From NCBI RefSeq assembly GCF_000328705.1, contig NC_019673.1:2542001-2606000 (forward strand): a DNA stretch of 64,000 nucleotides, given 5' to 3'. This DNA comes from Saccharothrix espanaensis DSM 44229 (GTDB lineage Bacteria > Actinomycetota > Actinomycetes > Mycobacteriales > Pseudonocardiaceae). The notes below the pieces were generated by a model that saw only the letters and a list, made by a program, of their open reading frames with translations, was not told where the DNA came from and did not search any database. A program made the position numbers and the translations under genes. This document shows positions 816 to 11,992 of this stretch, in pieces (position 1 is the first letter of the stretch; each line of letters starts with the position of its first letter).

Positions 816-1576
816 TCCGGGCGCTGGTCCGAGACGCGGCGCGCCCAGGGCGCGGGAGCCGGCGGCGGCCGGCGCGGAGCTGGTCGCCGGCGACATGCGG
901 GACCGCGGCTCGCTGGACCGGGCGGTGGCCGGCGCGCACGGGGTGTTCAGCGTGCAGCCCGCGGCCACGCCGGACGTGCCGGAGGTCGCGATGGGCGTCG
1001 CGGTCGCCGACGCCGCCGCGGCGGCCGGGGTCGGGCGCCTGGTCCACACCTCGGTCGGCGGGGCCGACCGGGACGCCGGGATCTCGCACTGGAGCACCAA
1101 GTGGCGCATCGAGCAGCACCTGCGCGGGCTCGGTCTGCCCACGACGGTGCTGCGGCCGGTGATGTTCATGGAGAACCACGCCAGGCCGGGGATGGGCGTG
1201 CTCGGCGAGCGGGCGCTGGTCCGGCTGGTCCCGCCGCACGCCACCGTGCAGCTCATCGCGGTGCGTGACATCGGGGCGCTCGCCGGGTTGGCGTTCGCCG
1301 ACCCGGACCGCTACGCCGGGCAGGCGCTGGAGATCGCGGGCGACGAGGTCACGAGGGGTGACCTCGTCGCCGCGCTCGTTGCGGCGCTGGGCCGGGAGAT
1401 CGACACCGGCCCGCTGCCGATCGTTCGCCGGGTGGCGGGCGGACATCACGGCGCTGCGGGCGCTGCACCCCGACCTGTGGGACCTGCCGACGTGGCCGGC
1501 GAACGGGGGCGCGGCGCTGCTCAAGGAGCACCGGGGCCAGGAGGAGCGCCGGGGCCAGGAGGAGGGCCGGGAGTAG
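815..1576 (+). pseudogene. NmrA-family NAD(P)-binding oxidoreductase, truncated and frame-broken
   Basis: The recognisable protein begins at VRALVRDA (about 815), lacking the Rossmann GxxGxxG start that should precede it. It then shifts frame near 842-856 to reach AGAELVAGDMRDRGSL, continues through TSVGGADRD and LRPVMFMEN, and shifts frame again near 1421-1430 to reach RADITALRALHPDLWDLP. Two frame breaks plus a missing N-terminus argue for a decayed gene. Its tail overlaps the 3' end of the convergent adenylation gene. Intact relatives are NADPH sensors or quinone/imine reductases. Confidence 0.7.
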
Positions 1577-3041
1577 GAGCAGCGCCGGGACCGGGAGTAG
1601 CGGCGGTGCCGGTCAGGGCGCGCCGGTCCACCTTGCCGTTCGCGGTGCGCGGCAACGCTTCCACCACCCGCACCCGGTCCACGATCATGTGGCGCGGCAG
1701 CCGTTCCGCGCAGCGGCGCTTGGCGTCGAGCAGGCCGAACGCGCTGCCGGCCGCGGGCACCACGTACGCCGTCAGCAGGGCGTCCATCCCGCTCCCGACG
1801 ACGGCCACCGCCACCTCGCTCACCTGCGGGTGGGACTGGAGCGCGGCCTCCACGTCACCCAGCTCGACCCGGTTGCCGCGAAGCTTCACCATGTTGTCCC
1901 GGCGGCCGAGGTAGTGGAAGTCGCCGTAGCGCAGCACCACCCGGTCCCCGGTGCGGTACGGGCCGCGGTGCGGTTCGGCGCCGTGGTAGCCGAGCATCAC
2001 CGTCGGACCGTCGACCACCAACTCGCCCTCTTCCCCCGGTGCCGCAGGGCTCCCGTCGTCCCGCTCGGCCCACGCCCGGTCGCCCGAGCAGGCCCGGCCG
2101 ATCGGGGCCGGGTGCGTCCAGTCGGCCGGCACGTCGGTCACCTCGTAGAACGTGCAGACGTTCGTCTCGGTCGGTCCGTACAGGTTGAGCAGCCGGATCG
2201 CGGGGAAGCGGGACCGCAGTGCGCGCAGGTGGTCGACGGGGTACGGCTCGCCGGCGAACAGCACGGCCCGCAGGTCCGGTAGGTCGGCGGCGAGCAGCCC
2301 GCCGTCGCGCGCCATCAGGATCAGCACCGACGGCACCGAGTACCACACGGTGATCCGTTGCGCGGAAAGGAGTTCGACCAGCAGGCGCGGCGCGTACGCG
2401 GTCTCCTGCGGCACCAGGTGGACCGACGCGCCCGCCAGGAACGCGACGTAGAGGTCCAGCACGGACAGGTCGAAGTGCAACGGCGCGTGGTTGGCGAACC
2501 GGTCCGCCGACTCGGCCTTCAGCTCGACCGCCGCCCACTCCACGAACGCCATCGCGTTGCGGTGCGAGATCCGGACGCCTTTCGGGACCCCGGTGGAACC
2601 CGAGGTGTAGAGGATGTACGCCAGGTCGTCGAGCGAGGACCGCACCGGCGGCAACGGTTCCACCGGACCGCCGCCGAGCGTCACGCACGCGGTCGTGAAC
2701 TCGTCGCCCAACGCCCGCGCGCCCTCCGGCGTGGTGATCACGACCCTGGGCGCGCAGTCCCGGATCACCTGCGCGGCCCGGTCGACCGGGCTCAACGGGT
2801 CGACCGGCACGTACGCCGCGCCGAGTCGCAACGCCGCCTGCATCGCGACGACGGAGACCGTGGACTTGGGCAGCCACAAGGCGACCCGGTCACCGGTCAG
2901 TACGTCCATTGTGGACAGCAGGTGGCCGAGACGGTCGGCCTCGACGTCCAGCTCGGCGTAGGTCAGCGCGCCGTCGCCCGCCGTCACGGCGAGCGCCGTG
3001 CTCGACGCGTGCTCCCGGACCAGGTCGTGCAGGAGTTTCAC
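1521..3041 (-). CDS. Stand-alone adenylation enzyme, L-prolyl-AMP ligase type
   Basis: This 506-residue single-domain adenylation protein should activate an amino acid and load it onto the carrier protein encoded at 4355-4636. Core motifs are present: YTSGSTGVPKG (A3), HFDLSVLDLY (A4), NLYGPTET (A5), YRTGDR (A7), GRRDNMVKLRGNRVE (A8) and RTANGKVDRR with the A10 lysine. Aligning the pocket by eye to GrsA gives D-L-L-Y-L-A-L-V-C, which is the L-proline code I recall for PltF/RedM enzymes. The C-terminus is a low-complexity Pro/Gly/Ala tail. The GTG start overlaps the TGA of the dehydrogenase gene by 4 bp, so the two are translationally coupled. Confidence 0.9.
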   Translation of the reverse strand: MKLLHDLVREHASSTALAVTAGDGALTYAELDVEADRLGHLLSTMDVLTGDRVALWLPKSTVSVVAMQAALRLGAAYVPVDPLSPVDRAAQVIRDCAPRVVITTPEGARALGDEFTTACVTLGGGPVEPLPPVRSSLDDLAYILYTSGSTGVPKGVRISHRNAMAFVEWAAVELKAESADRFANHAPLHFDLSVLDLYVAFLAGASVHLVPQETAYAPRLLVELLSAQRITVWYSVPSVLILMARDGGLLAADLPDLRAVLFAGEPYPVDHLRALRSRFPAIRLLNLYGPTETNVCTFYEVTDVPADWTHPAPIGRACSGDRAWAERDDGSPAAPGEEGELVVDGPTVMLGYHGAEPHRGPYRTGDRVVLRYGDFHYLGRRDNMVKLRGNRVELGDVEAALQSHPQVSEVAVAVVGSGMDALLTAYVVPAAGSAFGLLDAKRRCAERLPRHMIVDRVRVVEALPRTANGKVDRRALTGTAATPGPGAAPTPGPPPGPGAPPGPGAP

Positions 3042-4162
3042 AGCCCCAGCTCCTTGGCCATCTGCTCCAACTGCATCTCGGACGTGCCGGAGAACGTGGT
3101 GGCCGCCAAGGCGTCCAGGAGTTCGTGCGCCACCCCCGGCCCGATGCGCACCCCGGTCCCGCCGAGGACCCGCACCGCGAACGCGGCCACGTCCACCGCG
3201 ACCTCGCTGACCGCGAGCTTCGCGCCGGCCACGTCCAGCGCCGCCCGCCCGCCCCGGTCCAGCCGCCAGCACGCCTGCCACAGCAGCAGCCGGGCCGCCT
3301 CCAGCCGGCCGTGCAGCCGGGCGATCGCGTGCGCCACGGCCTGGTTCTTGCCGATCGCCCGGCCGAACTGGCGGCGCTCCCGGGCGTGCGCCACGCACCG
3401 CTCCAGCAGCCGCCCCGCCTGCCCCAGGTAGGCGGCGAACAGGCAGGTCCGCTCCCACCGCATGGACGACTGGAAGATCGCCGCGCCCTGCCCCGGCACG
3501 CCGAGCACGTGGTCTGCGGGGACCCGGCACCCCTCGAACCGGACCTCGCCCACCGGGCAGGTGTGCAGCACCGCCTTCTCGAACGGCTCCACCGAGAGGC
3601 CGGGCGTGTCCCGCTCCACGACGAACCCGGTCACGCCCAGGTGGCCGAACTCCGGGTCGGTGGAGGCGTAGACCACGAACACGTCGGCCTCGGGCGCGTT
3701 GCTGACGAACGACTTCACGCCGTCGAGCACGTAGTGGTCGCCGTCCGCGCGGGCGGTCGCGCGCAGCGCCGTGACGTCGGACCCCGCGTCCTGCTCGGTG
3801 ATCGCGTTCGCCCCGACCCACTCGCCCGACGCGAGCAGCGGCAGCACCCGTTCGCGCACCCGCTCGTCGCCGTGCTCGGCGATCGGCATCGCGCACGCGA
3901 ACAGGTGGGCCAGCGCGGCGAACACCAGCCCCAGGTCCGGGCAGCCGAGCCCGAACGCCTCCATGGCGCGGGCGGTGTCGAGGAACCCGCGCCCGGAGCC
4001 GCCGTGCTCGGCGGGCACGCTGTAGCCCAGCAGCCCGGCCTCGCCGCACCGCCGCCACCGCTCCCCGGCCAGGCCGGCCGGCCGCTCGTCGGGCCAACCG
4101 GCGGTCGCCGCGCGGACGCGGTCGAAGTCGGCCTGCGCGGCCGGGTGCCATCCGAAGTCCAC
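3038..4162 (-). CDS. Acyl-CoA dehydrogenase-type prolyl-carrier dehydrogenase
   Basis: This 374-residue protein has the acyl-CoA dehydrogenase fold: ANAITEQDAGSD and the C-terminal RVLGGTGVRIGPGVAHELLD and TFSGTSEMQ segments are family hallmarks. Beside a proline-type adenylation enzyme and a carrier protein it is best read as the FAD enzyme that oxidises prolyl-S-carrier to pyrrolyl-2-carboxyl-S-carrier (PltE/RedW type). The GTG start at 4162 gives a usual family length (VDFGWHPAAQ); longer in-frame starts exist up to about 4300 but would add an Arg-rich stretch containing a TTA codon. It is the first gene of the minus-strand pair and is divergent from the carrier gene. Confidence 0.85.
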   Translation of the reverse strand: MDFGWHPAAQADFDRVRAATAGWPDERPAGLAGERWRRCGEAGLLGYSVPAEHGGSGRGFLDTARAMEAFGLGCPDLGLVFAALAHLFACAMPIAEHGDERVRERVLPLLASGEWVGANAITEQDAGSDVTALRATARADGDHYVLDGVKSFVSNAPEADVFVVYASTDPEFGHLGVTGFVVERDTPGLSVEPFEKAVLHTCPVGEVRFEGCRVPADHVLGVPGQGAAIFQSSMRWERTCLFAAYLGQAGRLLERCVAHARERRQFGRAIGKNQAVAHAIARLHGRLEAARLLLWQACWRLDRGGRAALDVAGAKLAVSEVAVDVAAFAVRVLGGTGVRIGPGVAHELLDALAATTFSGTSEMQLEQMAKELGL

Positions 4163-4354
4163 GCGACCGAACAGTAAGCAGCCCGCGCCGGGTTGTCCTC
4201 CCCTGGAATACCGGCCCCGACCTGGCCGCACGGACAGGTCCGGCCTCCGCCGAACGGCCGGCCGCACCCGCCATTCCGACGGAAGACAGCGGTTTTCCAC
4301 CCCTCATAGCATCCCCACCACATCCGGTGGTGCGGCACGGATACGGAGATGTGC
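4163..4354. promoter_or_regulatory. Divergent promoter region of the pyrrole cassette
   Basis: About 190 bp separate the divergent dehydrogenase/adenylation pair from the carrier/halogenase operon. The region is less GC-rich than the flanks near 4250-4340 and should carry both promoters. A ggag at 4345-4348 sits 6 bases before the ATG at 4355 and decides the carrier-protein start over the ATG at 4349. I could not identify a confident operator. Confidence 0.5.
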
Positions 4355-4636
4355 ATGGAACACGCTGAGGTGCTCGGCACGCTGACGGAGTTCATCAGGG
4401 AGAAGGTGCTGGACTCCGCCGGGGTGGAGGTCCTCCCGGACACCCCGCTGCTGGAGTGGGGCATCCTTAACAGCCTGTCCACGACCGCCCTGGTCGTGTT
4501 CATCGGCGAGCGGCTCGGGGTCGACGTGCCCGCCGAACGCATGGTGGGCCGCAACTTCCGGGACCTGGACAGCATCACGCGGTTGGTGCTCGAACTGGAG
4601 AACGACGTCCGCGAGTCTGAGCTGGGGGCACTGTGA
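4355..4636 (+). CDS. Stand-alone acyl/peptidyl carrier protein
   Basis: This 93-residue acidic protein has the carrier fold with the attachment motif EWGILNSLS. Ser40 of N-S-L is the expected 4'-phosphopantetheine site. LLEWGIL before the serine resembles PltL-like type II carriers that hold proline and pyrrole-2-carboxylate. The ATG at 4355 is preferred because a ggag lies at the right distance, while the ATG at 4349 abuts it. The gene overlaps the halogenase start by 4 bp (GTGA), matching a carrier that presents substrate to the halogenase. Confidence 0.88.
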   Translation: MEHAEVLGTLTEFIREKVLDSAGVEVLPDTPLLEWGILNSLSTTALVVFIGERLGVDVPAERMVGRNFRDLDSITRLVLELENDVRESELGAL

Positions 4637-5979
4637 CAGACGTTGACTTCGACATCGGCATCATCGGCGGCGGCCCCGCCGGTTCCACCATCGCCTCCTA
4701 CCTGGCCAAGGCGGGCATGTCGGTCGTGCTGCTGGAGGGCGAGCTGTTCCCCCGGCCGCACGTGGGGGAGTCGCTGATCCCGGCGACCACCCCGGTGCTG
4801 GCCGACATCGGGGCACTGGCCAAGGTGGACGAAGGCGGGTTCCCGCGCAAGTACGGCGCGGCCTGGACCTCCGCCACCAGCAACGACATCTCCAACCTGG
4901 GTTTCAAGCTCTCGCACGGGTTCAAGGCCGCCGAGGTCGAGTTCCGCGAGCGCGACCAGAAGAACGTCGACCAGGACTACACCTACCACGTCGACCGCGG
5001 CCAGTTCGACCTGCTGCTGCTGCAGCACAGCGAATCCCTGGGCGCGAAGGTCTACGAGGGCGTGCGGGTCCAGCGGGTCGAGCTGGCGGAGGACGTCAAG
5101 AAGATCGTGTTCACCCTGGGGCGGCGGGAGATCGGCGTCCGGGTGCGGCTGGTGGTCGACGCCAGCGGGCGCAGCACCCTGCTCGGCCGCCAGCTCAAGC
5201 TCAAGGTGCCCGACCCGGTGTTCAACCAGTACGCCATCCACACCTGGTTCGACGGCCTGGACCGGTCGGCGCTCGCGGTGGACAAGAAGCAGGCCGACTT
5301 CATCTTCATCCACTTCCTGCCGATCACCGACACGTGGGTCTGGCAGATCCCCATCACCGACACCATCACCAGCGTCGGCGTGGTGACCCAGAAGAAGCAC
5401 TTCACCGCCGCCAACCAGCAGTGGGGCGCGTTCTTCGAGGAGTCCATGGCGAGCCGGCCGGAGCTGGCCGAGGCGCTGCGCAAGGCCGAGCGGGTCCGCC
5501 CGTTCAAGCCGGAGGGCGACTACAGCTACGCCATGAGGCAGGTCTGCGGCGACGGCTGGCTGATGGTCGGCGACGCGGCCCGGTTCGTGGACCCGATCTT
5601 CTCCAGCGGCGTCAGCGTCGCCATGAACAGCGCGCGCATCGCCTCCTACGACATCCTCGAAGCCGCCGAGCGCGGGGACTTCGGCAAGCCCTCGTTCGAC
5701 CGCTACGAGGCCAAGCTGCGCCGCGCGGTGAGCAACTGGTACGAGTTCATCTCGATCTACTACCGCCTCAACATCCTGTTCACCGCCTTCGTCGCGGACC
5801 CGCGCTACCGGCTGGACGTGCTGCGGATGCTCCAGGGCGACGTGTGGGACGGCGACGGCGAACCGGCGGCGCTGACCCGGATGCGGGACATCACCCGCGA
5901 GGTCGAGGAGAACCCGGACCACCTGTGGCACCCGCACCTGGGCACGCTGCGCGCGCCGAGCCAGGCACCGATGTTCTGA
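4633..5979 (+). CDS. FAD-dependent halogenase, pyrrolyl-carrier type
   Basis: This 448-residue flavoprotein begins with the dinucleotide motif GGGPAGST (residues 12-19). It has the halogenase WxWxIP motif as WVWQIP at 235-240 and a lysine at position 73 in PRKYGAAW, where flavin halogenases keep the catalytic Lys. [15 protein letters not shown] at about 313-327 closes the FAD site. [12 protein letters not shown] near residue 43 is typical of the carrier-dependent branch (PltA, Clo-hal, HrmQ) rather than tryptophan halogenases. It should chlorinate the pyrrolyl group on the adjacent carrier. Halide, position and number of halogens cannot be read from sequence, and no flavin reductase lies nearby. 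Its GTG overlaps the carrier stop. Confidence 0.9.
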
Positions 5980-5992
5980 GGAGACGAGTGAC

Positions 5993-7360
5993 GTGAAGAA
6001 GTACTTGCTGTCCGAGGACGACCTGCCCGCCCAGTGGTACAACATCCTGCCGGACCTGCCCAAGCCGCTGCTGCCGCCGCTGCACCCGGTGACCCACGAG
6101 CCGATCACCGCCGCCGACCTCCAGCCGCTGCTGCCCGACGAGGTGATCGCGCAGGAGTTCAGCCCGCAGCGGTGGATCGACATCCCCGAGGAGGTCCGCG
6201 ACGTCCTCAAGATCTGGCGGCCCTCCCCGCTGTACCGGGCGGACCGGCTGGAGAAGGCGCTGGACACCCCGGCCAAGATCTACTTCAAGTACGAGGCGGT
6301 CTCGCCCGCCGGCTCGCACAAGCCGAACACCGCCATCCCGCAGGTGTTCTACAACGCCCGCCAGGGCGTGAAGCGGGTGACCACGGAGACCGGCGCGGGC
6401 CAGTGGGGCTCGGCGCTGTCCTTCGCGGGCAGCCTGTTCGGCGTCGAGGTCACCGTCTACATGGTCAAGGCGTCCTTCCAGCAGAAGCCGCACCGGCGCT
6501 CGCTGATGGAGACCTGGGGCGGCGAGGTGTTCGCCTCGCCCAGCACGCGCACCCAGGCGGGCCTGAAGATCCTGGCCGACGACCCGGACTCGCCGGGCAG
6601 CCTCGGCATCGCGATCAGCGAGGCCGTGGAGGACGCGCTGGCCCACGACGACACCAAGTTCGCGCTCGGCTCGGCGATGAACCACGTGGTGCTGCACCAG
6701 ACCGTGATCGGCCTGGAGGCCAAGCGCCAGCTCGAGATCGCCGGCGACTACCCGGACGTCGTGGTCGGCTGCGTCGGCGGCGGGTCGAACTACTCCGGCC
6801 TGACCTTCCCGTTCCTGGCCGACACGCTGACCGGGCGGCGCACCGGGACCCGGTTCATCGCCGCCGAGCCCTCCGCGTGCCCGACGTTGACCAGGGGGCA
6901 GTACGCCTACGACTACCCGGACACCGCGGGCCTGGGGCCGTTGCTGCACATGAAGACCATGGGCCACGGCTTCATCCCGCCGCCCATCCACGCGGGCGGC
7001 CTGCGCTTCCACGGCGACGCGCCCACGTTGTGCCTGCTGCACGACGAGGGCTTCGTGGAAGCCCGCGCCTACAACCAGAACGAGGTCTTCACCGAGGCCG
7101 TGCGGTTCGCCCGCACCGAGGGCTTCGTGATGGCGCCCGAGTCGTCGCACGCGCTGCGCGGCGCGGTCGCCGAGGCGCTGGCCGCCAAGGAGGCCGGCGA
7201 GGCCCGCACGATCCTGTTCGGGTTCTCCGGTCACGGCCACTTCGACATGGGCGCGTTCGACTCGTTCCTGGCGGGCCGGTTGGAGGACTACGACCTGCCG
7301 CAGGAGCAGATCGACGCGGCGCTGGCCGACCTGCCGAACATCCCGGCCAGGACGGTCTGA
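5993..7360 (+). CDS. trpB2: Tryptophan synthase beta-like PLP enzyme (TrpB2 type)
   Basis: This 455-residue fold-type II PLP enzyme matches the TrpB2 subgroup in its long N-terminus and PLP lysine in AGSHKPN (Lys110), plus [10 protein letters not shown] and the phosphate-binding VGGGSNYSG. TrpB enzymes use serine to form an aminoacrylate that is attacked by a nucleophile such as indole. There is no trpA or other trp gene here, and the gene sits inside a halopyrrole operon, 13 bp after the halogenase with an aggag site. I infer a dedicated beta-substitution reaction rather than primary tryptophan synthesis, perhaps with a pyrrole nucleophile. A salvage TrpB2 role remains possible. Confidence 0.88.
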
Positions 7361-8314
7361 GTGTCCGGAGTGGACTGGGTGGACGTGCACCACCACGCGT
7401 ACCACGGGCGGCTGGCCGACGCGCTGGCCGCCCGCGGCGTGACCCACATGGCACCGGGCGTGCCGGTGCCGCGCTGGGACCCCGCCGACACGGTCGCGGT
7501 GATGGCCGAGCACGACCTGGCCGCCGTCGTGCTCTCGGTGCTGGTGCCCGACGCCGCGCTGGTGCTCCCGGACGCGGCGGCGCTGGTGCGGCAGACCAAC
7601 GAGTGGACGGCGGAGGTGGTGCGCGAGCGCCCGGAGCGGTTCGGCCTGCTGGCCACCCTGCCGCTGCCGGACCTCGACGCCGCGTTGGCCGAGGTCGCGC
7701 ACGCCTACGACGTGCTGGGCGCGGACGGCGTGGTGCTGCCCGCCTCCCTGGCCGACGGCGCGATCCTGGGCGACCCCGGCCTGGACCCCCTGCTGGCGGA
7801 GCTCGACCGGCGGGACGCCGTGGTGTTCCTGCACCCGAACCCCCACTACCGGTGTTCGTGCACGGGCGCGTCGGACTTCGCCGCCGCCGTGCCGCCGCCG
7901 CTGGTCGACTTCGTCATGGACACCACCCGCGCGGTGGCGAACCTGCTGTTCCGGGGCGCGCTGCGGCGGTTCCCCCGGATCCGGTTCGTGCTCGCGCACG
8001 GCGGCGGGACCATCCCGTTCCTGGTGGGCCGGCTGGAACTGGCCCGCACCTGGGTGCTGCCCGGCCAGGACGGGTCGGTGGGCGAGGAGCTGGGCCGGCT
8101 CTACTACGAGACCGCGCAGTCCTCCACGGCCGCCGCGCTGGCGTGCGTGGAGGCCGTCGCGCGGCCGGGGCACGTGCTGTTCGGCACGGACTTCCCGTTC
8201 ATGGGCGCGGCGGTGGTCGGGCAGACCCGGCGCGAGGTGGCCGCGCACCGGCCGGACATCGGCGCGGCGGGGCTGGCGCTGTTCCCCCGGCTGCGCGCCG
8301 CCGCGAGGAGGTAG
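7361..8314 (+). CDS. Amidohydrolase family 2 protein, ACMSD/decarboxylase-like
   Basis: This 317-residue TIM-barrel metal enzyme has the N-terminal HxH (DVHHHAYHG), a mid-protein HPNPH, FVLAHGGG and C-terminal FGTDFPF that together form the metal site of the ACMSD and dihydroxybenzoate decarboxylase group. Most relatives are non-oxidative decarboxylases of aromatic or enoic acids; some are hydrolases. GTG directly follows the TGA of the TrpB2 gene, so both are in one transcript. In this context a decarboxylation of a pyrrole-2-carboxylate is attractive but is inference. Confidence 0.82.
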   Translation: MSGVDWVDVHHHAYHGRLADALAARGVTHMAPGVPVPRWDPADTVAVMAEHDLAAVVLSVLVPDAALVLPDAAALVRQTNEWTAEVVRERPERFGLLATLPLPDLDAALAEVAHAYDVLGADGVVLPASLADGAILGDPGLDPLLAELDRRDAVVFLHPNPHYRCSCTGASDFAAAVPPPLVDFVMDTTRAVANLLFRGALRRFPRIRFVLAHGGGTIPFLVGRLELARTWVLPGQDGSVGEELGRLYYETAQSSTAAALACVEAVARPGHVLFGTDFPFMGAAVVGQTRREVAAHRPDIGAAGLALFPRLRAAARR

Positions 8315-8315
8315 C

Positions 8316-8786
8316 GTGCGTTATTTCGAGGATTTCCGGGTCGGCGACGTGCACGAATTGGGCAGTCATCGGATTTCCGCGGTGGAGATCCGGTCATTCG
8401 CCCGGCAGTACGACCCGCAACCGGTGCACCTCGGCCGGTCGGCCGAACCGATGATCGCCAGCGGGTGGCACGTGGCGGCCGTGTTCATGCGGCTCTACGT
8501 CGATTCGGTGATCAGCGGTTCGGCCGCCGAGGTGTCGCCGGGGATCGACGAACTGCGCTGGTTGCGCCCGGTGCGGCCGGGTGACCTGCTGGTCGGCCGG
8601 TCGACCGTGCTGGGCGCGACCCCGTCGCTGTCCCGGGCGGACTGCGGGATCGTGCGCCAGCGCGGCGAGCTGGCCGACGATTCCGGGCGGCCGGTGCTGC
8701 GGTTCGTGTTCTACGGATTGATGCGAAAGCGCGAATACGACCCCGCCGCCGCCGGGGTGATCCACCCCGATACGCTCGGGGCATGA
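8316..8786 (+). CDS. MaoC-like hotdog-fold hydratase or thioesterase
   Basis: This 156-residue protein has the single-hotdog MaoC pattern: an N-terminal YFEDFRVGD, then FARQYDPQPVHLG with the Asp and His of the hydratase dyad, then IASGWHVAA. Family members hydrate enoyl thioesters; some hotdog proteins cleave thioesters. No thioesterase gene is otherwise present in the cassette, so release of the acyl group from the carrier is a possible role. A gaggagg site at 8304-8311 precedes the GTG, and the gene follows the amidohydrolase by one base. Confidence 0.8.
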   Translation: MRYFEDFRVGDVHELGSHRISAVEIRSFARQYDPQPVHLGRSAEPMIASGWHVAAVFMRLYVDSVISGSAAEVSPGIDELRWLRPVRPGDLLVGRSTVLGATPSLSRADCGIVRQRGELADDSGRPVLRFVFYGLMRKREYDPAAAGVIHPDTLGA

Positions 8787-9244
8787 GCGGACCGACTCCG
8801 GCGCAAATCCTGGAAGCGGCGGGCGTGCCCTTTTCGTCTTTCCCGCACGCGCCCATCCGGACGTACGAGGACATCGAGCGCGAGTTGGCCCTGCCCGCCG
8901 AGCGGCTGCTCAAGACGCTGGCGTTCCGCGCCGAGGACCGGTTCGTCCTGGTGTCGATGCCGATGCTGCTGCCCGCCGGCTACGGCAAGATCGCCAAGGC
9001 CGCGGGCGTCTCGCGCTCGAAGCTGCGCCGCGCTGGGGAGGACGACCTGGCCGTGCTCGGCATGGCCCCCGGCGGCATCAGCCCGTTGACCGAGGTGGCC
9101 GACCGCACGGTGGTGTTCCACCCGTCGGTGCCGGAGATGGGCAAGGTCTACTGCGGCAGCGGCCGCGACGACGTGACCATCGAGGTCGACGCGGCCGCCC
9201 TGGTCGAGCTGGTCAAGCCGGTCATCACCGACGTGGCGAACTGA
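8783..9244 (+). CDS. YbaK/ProX-type aminoacyl-tRNA deacylase
   Basis: This 153-residue protein is a single YbaK/ProX (INS-type) editing domain, with the conserved lysine in LLKTLAF, then MLLPAGYGKIAKAAG and a glycine-rich GMAPGGISP. Such free-standing domains hydrolyse mischarged tRNA, classically tRNA(Pro) or tRNA(Cys/Pro) errors. Its ATG overlaps the MaoC stop (ATGA), making it the last gene of the operon. Placement beside enzymes that handle proline-derived chemistry suggests self-protection against a product that can be misacylated. That link is inference. Confidence 0.85.
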   Translation: MSGPTPAQILEAAGVPFSSFPHAPIRTYEDIERELALPAERLLKTLAFRAEDRFVLVSMPMLLPAGYGKIAKAAGVSRSKLRRAGEDDLAVLGMAPGGISPLTEVADRTVVFHPSVPEMGKVYCGSGRDDVTIEVDAAALVELVKPVITDVAN

Positions 9245-9254
9245 CGCACGGCCT

Positions 9255-10445
9255 TCACACCCGCACGAGTTCCGGCTCGCGCTCCCGGTGCAGCAGCGTG
9301 ACCAGCGGCCCGGTCATCATCGTGGTGAGCACGGCCATCAGCACCAGTTGCGAGTACAGGTCGCGGTCGAGCAGGCCGAGTTGCAGGCCGATGCTCAGGA
9401 TGACCAGCTCGGTCAGGCCACGGGTGTTGAGCAGGGTGCCCAGCGTCGCCGACTCCCGCCAGCCCAGCCGGCAGAGCCGGGCGGCGAGCACCGCGCCGGC
9501 GAACTTGCCACCGACCGCGACCAGCAGGATCAGCCCGAAGTCGGCGAAGCCGGACCAGGTGATCCGGGACAGGTCGACGTTGAGCCCGGCGACCACGAAG
9601 TAGACCGGCAGCAGCAGCACCTTGCCGACCTGCTCGATGCGCAGCGTCACGCCCGCCCGCAGGTCCGTCCCGTGCGGCATGACCAACCCGAACAGGAACG
9701 CGCCGAAGATGAAGTGCAGCCCCATCCACTCGGTCAGCGCGCTCCAGCCCAGCAACCCGATCAGCACCACGGCGAACATGTCCCGCCGGGAGTCCGCGAT
9801 CCGCGCCAGCAGCGGCCGCACCACCAGGAAGCCCACCAGGGCCAGCGGCAGCACCAGCAGCAGCCGCCACTGGTCGGACGTGCCCACGCCGAGCGTCGCG
9901 ATGGCCACCGCCAGCATCGACCACGCCAGCAGGTCGCCCAGCGCGGCACTGCCCAGCGCGAGCACGCCGACCTTCGACCCGCTCAGGTTCCAGTCGCCGA
10001 TCATCCGCGCCAGCACCGGGAACGCGGTCACCGCCATCGCCGTGCCCAGGTAGAGCACGAACGCCACGCGGTCGTCGTCGGGCCGCAGCGCGGTCGCCAG
10101 CAGCACGCCCAGCACGAACGGCGTCAGCATGGACCCCAGCGACAGCACGGTGATCGCGCCGAGCCGCTCGCGCAGCAGGTCCCGGTTGAACTCCAGGCCG
10201 ACCAGGAACATGAAGAACACCAGCCCGACGTTGGCCAGCGAGCTGAGCATCGGCCGGATGTCGGCCGGGAACACCAGGTCCGCGACCGCCCCGCCGAACA
10301 GGGTCGGTCCGACCAGCACGCCCGCCAGGATCTCGCCGACCACGGCGGGCTGCGCGAGCCGGGTGGCCAGCCGGCCCATCACGTTGGCCAGGGCGACGAT
10401 CGCGGCCAGCGCCACCAGCAGCGCGACCACCTGCTGGGAGCTCAC
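9255..10445 (-). CDS. CPA2-type cation:proton antiporter
   Basis: This 396-residue membrane protein has about twelve predicted hydrophobic segments. It contains VGEILAGVLVGP near residue 36 and FFMFLVGLEFNRDLL near 77, both typical of the KefB/GerN-like Na+(K+)/H+ exchanger domain; no TrkA-N domain follows. The gene converges on the deacylase gene with only 10 bp between stops. Its GTG overlaps the exporter stop by 4 bp (GTGA), so it is coupled to the EamA gene. It could energise or balance export of the cassette product, or be unrelated. Confidence 0.85.
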   Translation of the reverse strand: MSSQQVVALLVALAAIVALANVMGRLATRLAQPAVVGEILAGVLVGPTLFGGAVADLVFPADIRPMLSSLANVGLVFFMFLVGLEFNRDLLRERLGAITVLSLGSMLTPFVLGVLLATALRPDDDRVAFVLYLGTAMAVTAFPVLARMIGDWNLSGSKVGVLALGSAALGDLLAWSMLAVAIATLGVGTSDQWRLLLVLPLALVGFLVVRPLLARIADSRRDMFAVVLIGLLGWSALTEWMGLHFIFGAFLFGLVMPHGTDLRAGVTLRIEQVGKVLLLPVYFVVAGLNVDLSRITWSGFADFGLILLVAVGGKFAGAVLAARLCRLGWRESATLGTLLNTRGLTELVILSIGLQLGLLDRDLYSQLVLMAVLTTMMTGPLVTLLHREREPELVRV

Positions 10446-11338
10446 ACCGGCACCGGTTCACGCCTGCTGCGCGCGGGTCGCAGCCCGATCGCCAGGCCCA
10501 CCAGCACCAGGCACGCGCCGACCAGGTCGGCGGTCCGGGGCTGGCCGGTGCCCAGCACAACCGTGGAGACCACCGCGCCGACCGGCAGGAAACCGGAGAA
10601 CAGCCCGGCCTTGTCCGCGCCGAGCCGGGGCAGCGAGGAGTACCAGCACAGGAACGCGAACACCGTGACCACCACGGCCAGGTAGCCCAGGGCGAGCGCC
10701 TCGGCCGCGGTCGGCACCCGCACCAGGTCCGGCCCGTCGACGACCAGCCCGACCACGACCAGTTGCGGCACCGCCAGCGCCGCCGAGTACGCCGACACCC
10801 GGATCGCGCCGAGTCGGCCCAGCACCGGAAGCGCCAGCAGCGAGAACCCCGCCTCGCAGGCCAGCGCGCCGAACGCGAGCAGCAGCCCCAGCGCCGACCC
10901 GCCGCCGAACCCGCTGGTCACCGCGACCCCGACGACCACGACCACGGAGGCCAGCAGGACCCGGGGCGCGGGCTTGCGCCGCTCCATCACCGGGCCGAGC
11001 AGCGCCAGCACGATCGGCACCGCGGCCACCACCGTGCCCACGGTCGCCGGGTCGGCGGACCGGGTGCTCTCCACGATCAGCACGTTGAACGCCGTCAGCC
11101 CGGTCAGCGCGAGCGCCGCGAGGTAGAGGACCTCGCGCCGGGTGAGCCGGATCAGGCCCTTCCCGGACACCTGCGCCACCACGAGCAGCAGCAGCGCGCC
11201 GAACAGGTAGCGCACGGCCTGCCCGCCGTAGACGGGGTAGTCGTGCAGCGCGGGCGAGACGCCGGTCAGCGTGCCCACCAGGAACATCGCCGTCGCAGCG
11301 CCCAGCGCACCGCGTTGCACGTTGGTCAGGTTGAGCAA
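10442..11338 (-). CDS. EamA/DMT-family transporter, putative exporter
   Basis: This roughly 298-residue protein has ten hydrophobic segments in two repeated five-helix halves and a basic C-terminus, the EamA layout. Members export amino acids and small metabolites (RhtA, YdcZ relatives). The best start is uncertain: a TTG at 11338 gives the full first helix and an in-frame GTG lies 15 bases further in. It starts within a few bases of the stop of the LuxR-type regulator gene, so all three minus-strand genes probably form one operon. Export of a cassette amino acid would fit. Confidence 0.82.
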   Translation of the reverse strand: MLNLTNVQRGALGAATAMFLVGTLTGVSPALHDYPVYGGQAVRYLFGALLLLVVAQVSGKGLIRLTRREVLYLAALALTGLTAFNVLIVESTRSADPATVGTVVAAVPIVLALLGPVMERRKPAPRVLLASVVVVVGVAVTSGFGGGSALGLLLAFGALACEAGFSLLALPVLGRLGAIRVSAYSAALAVPQLVVVGLVVDGPDLVRVPTAAEALALGYLAVVVTVFAFLCWYSSLPRLGADKAGLFSGFLPVGAVVSTVVLGTGQPRTADLVGACLVLVGLAIGLRPARSRREPVPV

Positions 11339-11341
11339 GGT

Positions 11342-11992
11342 TCACGGCCTCCGTGCGGTTTCGGACAGTTCACCCACGTTGATCAGCCCGGTCTCGTAGG
11401 CGTAGGCGACCGCGCTCGCGCGGTTGGGCAGCCGGAGTTTGCGCAGCAGGTTCTGCACGTGGAACTTGACGGTGCTCTCGGTCAGCGACAGGTGCCGCGC
11501 CATCTCGGAGTTCGTCCGGCCGCCGACCAGCAGCCGCAGCACGTCGGTCTCCCGGCGGGTGATGCGCTCCAGCGGCGGTTCGCCCCGTTCCGCGGCGCGC
11601 GGCGCGGGCCCGGCGTAGAAGGCGTAGCCCGCGGCCAGCATCCGGATGGCGCTGAGGAACTCGTCCGGGCCGGACGTCAGCGGCAGCACGCCCACCCGGG
11701 GCGTGTCCGGCAGGACCGCGTTGTCGTCCACCACGAGCACGCTCGCCGAGGGTCGTCGGTCGAGGAACCTGCGCGCGGCCAGCGGTGCCCTCGGCACGTC
11801 GGCCAGACACCCGATCACCACGACGTCGGGCAGCTCCCGGGTGTGCCGGGCGAGGCTTTCGAAGGTGTCGACCTGGTGCGTGACCTCGATCCCGGGAGCC
11901 TCGTCCAGGATTTTTCGCATCCCGATCCGGAAAAGCGTTCTCCGCTCCGCCAGGATGATCCGGATGAGATTGCCGATGAGTGCGTTCTTCAC
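11342..11992 (-). CDS. LuxR/NarL-family regulator with atypical receiver domain
   Basis: This 216-residue protein has a receiver-like N-terminal half and a C-terminal LuxR HTH (ERITRRETDVLRLLVGGRTNSEMA, then STVKFHVQNLLRKL in the recognition region). The receiver lacks its phosphorylation site: the usual D at the end of beta-3 is glycine (PDVVVIG), and the acidic pair near the N-terminus reads A-E. I infer a ligand- or level-controlled orphan regulator. The GTG at 11992 (VKNALIGNLIRII) fits the domain; further upstream the frame is non-homologous. It heads the exporter operon and is the candidate controller of the cassette. Confidence 0.82.
   Translation of the reverse strand: MKNALIGNLIRIILAERRTLFRIGMRKILDEAPGIEVTHQVDTFESLARHTRELPDVVVIGCLADVPRAPLAARRFLDRRPSASVLVVDDNAVLPDTPRVGVLPLTSGPDEFLSAIRMLAAGYAFYAGPAPRAAERGEPPLERITRRETDVLRLLVGGRTNSEMARHLSLTESTVKFHVQNLLRKLRLPNRASAVAYAYETGLINVGELSETARRP

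Follow-up and report, generated by a model that had tools for sequence, protein, structure and literature searches.

The stretch of Saccharothrix espanaensis DSM 44229 analyzed here (64,000 nucleotides of NC_019673.1, called the window; all coordinates are positions within it) comes from a genome of 9.36 Mb. At 1521-9244 it contains two divergent groups of genes that combine a chloropyrrole-forming module with a stand-alone tryptophan synthase-like enzyme, TrpB2. The original prediction had described these eight genes as a compact halogenated-pyrrole cassette without a polyketide synthase (PKS) or nonribosomal peptide synthetase (NRPS), and they lie where it placed them, in the families AMP-binding, acyl-CoA dehydrogenase, PP-binding, Trp_halogenase/FAD, PALP, Amidohydro_2, MaoC and tRNA_edit. 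The unit is larger than this, however, and extends through three further genes (9255-11992), convergent to the plus-strand group, to position 11992. The features, with the short names used below, are as follows.

1521..3041, minus strand: A, a predicted stand-alone L-proline adenylation enzyme with specificity code DLLYLALVC (AMP-binding family, residue read-out and solved relatives)
3038..4162, minus strand: ACAD, a predicted prolyl-carrier dehydrogenase converting proline to pyrrole (acyl-CoA dehydrogenase family; 4-base overlap with A)
4349..4636, plus strand (start at 4349 or 4355): CP, a carrier protein with attachment motif GILNSLS (PP-binding family)
4633..5979, plus strand: HAL, a flavin-dependent halogenase of the PltA group with WVWQIP and Lys73 (Trp_halogenase/FAD family)
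5993..7360, plus strand: TrpB2, a stand-alone pyridoxal phosphate-dependent beta-synthase of a cassette-specific clade, with K110 and E132 kept and F223 replacing Tyr (PALP family)
7361..8314, plus strand: AHD, an Amidohydro_2 protein with H10, H12, H158, H213, D277 and R224, a proposed chloropyrrole-2-carboxylate decarboxylase
8316..8786, plus strand: MaoC-fold (hot-dog) protein with a D33/H38 dyad, a proposed thioester-releasing enzyme (MaoC family)
8783..9244, plus strand: YbaK-type aminoacyl-tRNA editing domain, proposed to act in self-protection, in 10 of 15 cassettes (tRNA_edit family)
9255..10445, minus strand: CPA2-type cation:proton antiporter (match below the family cut-off), in 10 of 15 cassettes
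10442..11338, minus strand: EamA (DMT) exporter, in 13 of 15 cassettes, with a LysE exporter in the remaining 2
11342..11992, minus strand: LuxR-family regulator, with a relative in all 15 cassettes

The genes are tightly packed. Neighbors overlap by 4 bases at ACAD/A, CP/HAL and MaoC/YbaK, and the gaps are 13 bases at HAL/TrpB2, 0 at TrpB2/AHD and 1 at AHD/MaoC.

A recurrent halopyrrole cassette without an assembly line

Whole genomes were searched with AHD as the query, and 17 of them gave a close match (E 1e-70 or better). Fifteen of the 17 carry the full seven-gene core (A, ACAD, CP, HAL, TrpB2, AHD and MaoC) in identical order, which rules out a chance neighborhood, and the other two hold remnants. 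In addition to the window, the full cassettes are in five more Saccharothrix genomes, Amycolatopsis sp. CA-126428, Streptosporangium saharense and S. carneum, Sphaerisporangium album and S. melleum, Nocardiopsis ansamitocini, and genomes G693, G256 and G426. Cassettes retrieved twice were counted once (L008/L012 = G007, L009/L014 = G011, L011/L015 = G021, L010/L016 = G018, L017/L039 = G692, L018/L040 = G599, L019/L041 = G603, L020/L043 = G529, L024/L037 = G688 and L013 = G828).

The first four activities form what is, by sequence, a standard halopyrrole module. Among solved structures, the A protein is closest to 6o6e (E 2.4e-146), an L-proline--[L-prolyl-carrier protein] ligase. Its code, DLLYLALVC, which we take to be the proline code of this A-protein group, is identical in 13 of the 15 cassettes, and the window's A protein is of the proline type. 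The top two NCBIfam matches of ACAD are the prolyl-PCP (peptidyl carrier protein) dehydrogenases PigA (396 bits, cut-off 500) and RedW (392 bits, cut-off 650), both below cut-off. HAL matches ChlB4 (7fco), the 5buk halogenase (presumably Mpy16) and PltA (5dbj), all with E values of at most 3.7e-179. Every HAL keeps WVWQIP and a Lys73 equivalent, and every carrier protein keeps GILNS; in the window, these motifs, the full GILNSLS and the A code read as originally described. A proline-type A protein, ACAD, a carrier and a PltA-type halogenase, the set that marks a thiotemplated halopyrrole, thus occur together in 15 of 15 cassettes. Because A, ACAD and HAL so closely match characterized families, we regard proline loading, oxidation and chlorination, and with them a route as far as a chloropyrrolyl-S-carrier, as predicted with near certainty. 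The A protein of the window has, near 1521, a low-complexity tail rich in Pro and Gly.

Nothing near the cassettes looks like a recipient for that acyl group. We scanned frames of at least 250 residues in the 15 cassette stretches (17 to 64 kb, with flanks of roughly 0.5 to 10 kb, the window excepted) for ketosynthase (KS) and condensation-domain motifs. No condensation-domain motif was found in these stretches, and no convincing KS motif; the only two KS-pattern matches, in L014 and L042, were judged false, the latter because it falls in the A gene and the former as an open frame with an ill-fitting motif, judged on the motif alone without a family search. Elsewhere in the S. espanaensis genome, another AMP-binding match first occurs ~135 kb away from the A gene, and the closest ketosynthase match is ~310 kb away. 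A compact cassette without PKS or NRPS is therefore a fair description, and no hand-over partner (PKS, NRPS or acyltransferase) for the pyrrolyl group was found beside the cassettes; a distant partner is among the possibilities weighed below.

The gene set behaves as one unit. TrpB2-to-AHD spacing is -8 to +10 bases and A/ACAD overlap 4 bases in all 15 cassettes (with starts chosen by script to fit those of the window). Pairwise distances of A, ACAD, HAL, TrpB2, AHD, MaoC and LuxR correlate at r 0.84-0.98 (105 pairs), and dN/dS (nonsynonymous to synonymous substitution rates) is 0.07-0.39 for eleven proteins compared with the L007, L015 and L013 copies where present, which together indicate that these genes are passed down and kept together. 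The Amycolatopsis HAL is 94% identical to that of the window, nearer than some HALs of the same genus (84% for L014), and its TrpB2 groups inside the Saccharothrix TrpB2s, which suggests horizontal transfer in this case.

The cassette is also rare. Counting the window's own genome in each case, AHD occurs in 6 of 25 genomes of the genus Saccharothrix (at E 1e-60) and, at E 1e-70, in 7 of 390 genomes of the same family and 2 of 394 sampled from the class. In the family of G256 the figure at E 1e-70 is 10 of 341, made up of eight full cassettes and the two remnants. At the latter (L044:9669-12977 in G650 and L045:7004-10279 in G646) only A, AHD and the LuxR relative are present, and ACAD, carrier, halogenase and TrpB2 were not found within 19.5 kb. 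One AHD match of this pair has an internal TGA, and both loci look like cassette remnants. There are also more distant AHD relatives. Of 13 AHD loci in one search 10 are cassettes, and the other three (L021-L023, 35-36% identical) show no other core gene; among plasmids, AHD matched ten records, with identities of 36-41%.

To the left of the cassette in the window, frames at 367-1524 resemble by eye pieces of a broken TetR regulator and of an NAD-binding protein, and short repeated stretches are visible at ~290-450.

TrpB2, the amidohydrolase and the MaoC-fold protein

The cassette TrpB2 is a clear member of its family (TIGR01415, 629.5 bits, cut-off 518.85; the TrpB-like family NF009057, 696 bits, cut-off 366). 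It is not the housekeeping enzyme, because the genome has a separate TrpB adjoining its single TrpA, the cassette copy is the only TrpB2 found there, and the cassette enzymes form a clade of their own. For that comparison, 32 genomes of the class sample had a TrpB2 match, of which 29 besides S. espanaensis gave rows and two (G100 and G136) gave no locus; L073 has gaps in the columns compared, so that 28 comparison rows remain there. In a quick tree without bootstrap, the 15 cassette TrpB2s form one clade against the 29 others (SH-aLRT, a Shimodaira-Hasegawa-like likelihood ratio test, 100).

What is kept and what is changed in this clade are both informative. The lysine of GSHK (K110) and the glutamate of ETGAGQW (E132) are present in all 15; in TrpB this glutamate activates the carbon nucleophile. 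Position 223 is Phe in 15 of 15 and Tyr in 28 of 28 others, as in canonical TrpB, and five more positions are fixed in the same way, namely M229 (Leu in the others), P309 (Gly), G315 (Thr), F339 (Tyr) and E368 (Ala). In the alignment F223 takes the place of a tyrosine, presumably Tyr186 of Salmonella TrpB, that borders the indole site, so that one of the fixed changes probably lies near the nucleophile site. The retained lysine and glutamate, together with the fixed changes including F223, suggest that TrpB2 chemistry has been kept and that its nucleophile has probably changed.

A TrpB2 also occurs beside a carrier elsewhere. Plasmid p1 of Streptomyces angustmyceticus (L079:7038-12991) carries a cluster in which a TrpB2 (46.5% identical) is grouped with an acyl carrier protein, an AMP-binding enzyme, a FAD/NAD(P)-binding protein and a LysE exporter, with pabB, isochorismatase-family and class IV aminotransferase genes as neighbors. 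Perhaps this is a second, independent way to make an aromatic amino acid with a carrier and a TrpB2.

We propose that AHD is a chloropyrrole-2-carboxylate decarboxylase. In a profile search its best solved relative is 2f6k, which has no named function, followed by isoorotate (listed as uracil-5-carboxylate), 2-amino-3-carboxymuconate 6-semialdehyde (ACMS), 5-carboxyvanillate and gamma-resorcylate decarboxylases; the last four of the 38 rows are 4-oxalomesaconate hydratases and, at the very end, PtmU3, which is a thioesterase. A single-sequence search also gave a weak match to a meta-cleavage compound hydrolase. The best 50 folds for an AlphaFold model of AHD (mean predicted local distance difference test score, pLDDT, 89.7) comprise 2f6k, the decarboxylases just named, those for salicylate and dihydroxybenzoate, and a handful of chains of unclear function; PtmU3 is absent from them. 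Identity to the decarboxylases in this comparison is about 19-23%. The metal and catalytic set (HxH, His, His, Asp, as H10, H12, H158, H213 and D277) is invariant in 17 of 17 alignment rows (14 cassettes and 3 loci outside). R224, also invariant in the cassettes, corresponds to the Arg in the GRI motif of ACMSD, presumably a ligand of the substrate carboxylate. The remaining cassette, L015, shows the set too; it was excluded from the AHD and MaoC alignments because of long inserts, its low-complexity stretch at L015:10001-11672 comprising a ~40-residue insert in AHD and a long MaoC tail. A decarboxylase is chemically sensible between a pyrrole-2-carboxyl module and a TrpB, since loss of the carboxylate would convert an electron-poor acid into a nucleophile that is electron-rich and resembles indole.

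Release of the thioester is the weakest link in the scheme. We consider the MaoC-fold protein the first candidate, because a hot-dog protein is present in all 15 cassettes, and AHD the second. The MaoC match is slight (27.8 bits, Pfam cut-off 27), its nearest structure is the hot-dog fold 3exz, and the Asp/His dyad (D33/H38) is invariant in 14 of 14 rows.

A proposed route to a chlorinated amino acid and its rivals

The accessory genes bear on the nature of the product. Every cassette has an amino-acid-type exporter beside it: EamA in 13, located on either side of the cassette, and the unrelated LysE in two (L020 and L026), where the LysE-family translocator adjoins YbaK (PF01810, E 3e-28 and 1e-30). 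The best NCBIfam match of the EamA in the window, below cut-off, is TIGR00950, for carboxylate, amino acid and amine transporters. Because one amino-acid-type exporter family replaces another, an amino-acid-like product is supported, and the cassette product is probably an amino acid. YbaK (PF04073, 61.8 bits) keeps the LLKT lysine, presumably catalytic, in 10 of 10 copies and scores below the NCBIfam cut-off for Cys-tRNA(Pro) deacylase (41.3 versus 153.25 bits). It may protect the tRNAs of the producer from mischarging; no report of YbaK in self-resistance was found in the open-access literature. As to regulation, the LuxR relative is perhaps unrelated in L020 and L026, where it is only ~33% identical, and a GntR/aminotransferase regulator, which we take to be MocR-type, stands beside six cassettes (L017, L018, L019, L038 and L042 by Pfam, and L024 by 82-88% identity to three of these).

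Taken together, these features lead us to favor, with moderate confidence in the scheme as a whole, beta-(mono- or dichloropyrrolyl)alanine as the cassette product, exported as a free non-protein amino acid. A would load L-proline onto CP, ACAD would oxidize the prolyl group to pyrrolyl-S-CP and HAL would chlorinate it. Everything beyond this carrier-bound chloropyrrole we infer. The thioester would be hydrolyzed within the cassette by the MaoC-fold protein or AHD. AHD would then decarboxylate the chloropyrrole-2-carboxylate in a metal-dependent reaction, as in isoorotate, gamma-resorcylate and ACMS decarboxylases. TrpB2 would form an aminoacrylate from L-serine or O-phosphoserine and add to it the chloropyrrole, by then free and electron-rich, much as tryptophan synthase does with indole. 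The amino acid would leave through EamA, or LysE in the two relatives, and, more speculatively, YbaK, where present, would clear tRNA mischarged with it.

Several observations weigh against this scheme. Proline as substrate is less sure in L020 and L026, where the A codes differ (DLFYAAFVC and DLLYVAFVC); an MFS transporter also stands next to the L020 cassette, EamA and LysE families carry compounds other than amino acids as well, and YbaK is absent beside 5 of the 15 cassettes. The tree program warns of long branches meeting in the TrpB2 tree, and the placing of F223 at the indole site depends on the residue numbering of Salmonella TrpB. Amidohydro_2 also includes PtmU3, the 4-oxalomesaconate hydratases and the meta-cleavage hydrolase. 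None of the cassette genes was recognized as a dedicated thioesterase, and the MaoC-fold protein keeps a hydratase dyad, so there is no direct reason to label it a thioesterase. Finally, a decarboxylase is not always needed: in the bmp pathway, decarboxylation is described in a review as spontaneous after tetrabromination (PMC5577590).

These uncertainties leave room for other readings. AHD could itself be the thioesterase, in which case the ring would keep its carboxylate and TrpB2 would alkylate a carboxylated chloropyrrole at carbon or nitrogen. The kinship with the thioesterase PtmU3 and the lack of another clear thioesterase in the cassette speak for this; but PtmU3 is the most remote profile relative and missing among the closest folds, where the kin with named functions are decarboxylases, and a ring carboxylate lowers nucleophilicity, so we think it unlikely. 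More doubtful still is that the cassette only feeds a chloropyrrole-2-carboxyl group to a distant PKS or NRPS, with TrpB2, AHD and MaoC serving some other, linked purpose. The host does have many AMP-binding and ketosynthase domains, many of them in long frames, and known proline-derived pyrroles are said to reach assembly lines (PMC10849742). Against this stand the lack of any convincing PKS or NRPS motif in the stretches scanned around the 15 cassettes and the fact that TrpB2 and AHD stay beside the halogenase, and co-vary with it, in 15 of 15.

TrpB2 might alternatively act on serine or another amino acid without forming a C-C bond, by elimination or by N- or S-alkylation, and the secreted product would then be a small halopyrrole. 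Reactions of PALP enzymes are indeed varied, and free halopyrroles are released by the Bmp pathway (PMC5577590). We nevertheless judge this improbable, because all 15 TrpB2s retain the glutamate that activates the carbon nucleophile and because the exporters beside the cassettes, from two families, are of the amino-acid type.

For the favored route to beta-(chloropyrrolyl)alanine, we found no description of a pyrrolylalanine natural product, or of such a pathway, in the open-access literature; subscription journals were largely outside this search, and a prior report is possible. Within the same bounds, no cluster of this kind with an assigned product was found, in keeping with the original impression of an unfamiliar combination. 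The fullest version of the idea, which we put forward tentatively and with slightly more doubt than confidence, is a new biosynthetic logic in which a carrier-bound halopyrrole is released, decarboxylated by a metal-dependent enzyme of the amidohydrolase family and used by a dedicated TrpB2 for C-alkylation with serine, the secreted beta-(chloropyrrolyl)alanine being an antimetabolite and a dedicated YbaK editing the tRNA of its producer. If true, carrier-bound halopyrroles would have a third fate, in addition to loading onto a PKS or NRPS and release as free bromopyrroles, and the cassette would provide a natural TrpB2 acting on pyrroles instead of indole and an amidohydrolase-type pyrrole-2-carboxylate decarboxylase. 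The pathway would also be small enough to test in a heterologous host as a source of chlorinated amino acids, and might include a tRNA-editing gene for self-protection.

Comparison with known systems

The pyoluteorin/marinopyrrole module shares with the cassette a proline adenylation enzyme, ACAD, a free-standing carrier and a PltA-type halogenase (PltF-PltE-PltL-PltA and Mpy16). There, the acyl group goes to a PKS, whereas the cassette has no PKS or NRPS nearby and continues instead with TrpB2, an Amidohydro_2 protein and MaoC. The ordinary arrangement is also seen in the single record returned by a plasmid search with the halogenase, the cyanobacterial Brasilonema plasmid pBOCT1 (L036:7298-25253), in which a halopyrrole-like module (halogenase 61% identical) is followed by NRPS and PKS genes, in a cluster that also has a P450 gene.

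The individual enzymes are likewise familiar in kind. The cassette TrpB2 has the score and the catalytic lysine and glutamate of the TIGR01415 family; it stands apart as a clade of its own whose fixed substitutions include Tyr to Phe at position 223, and its genome has no second TrpA. AHD shares fold and metal/catalytic residues with the isoorotate, gamma-resorcylate and ACMS decarboxylases, from which the low identity given above sets it apart.

Two systems come closer to the proposed release step. According to a 2024 paper (PMC10849742), characterized proline-derived pyrrole pathways involve no hydrolysis when the pyrrole moves on to the NRPS or PKS that follows, with the exception of the chalkophomycin (chm) pathway, whose ChmF-J resemble the present scheme in that the pyrrole is hydrolyzed off its carrier. 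ChmF, however, is an alpha/beta hydrolase, and the acid is re-activated for an NRPS and N-hydroxylated, not chlorinated. The Bmp pathway to tetrabromopyrrole and pentabromopseudilin follows the same logic from proline to halopyrrole-S-carrier and, according to a review (PMC5577590), ends in a released, decarboxylated halopyrrole, the tetrabrominated pyrrole being offloaded by hydrolysis. Where Bmp then couples a phenol by means of a P450, the cassette is proposed to couple serine by means of TrpB2.

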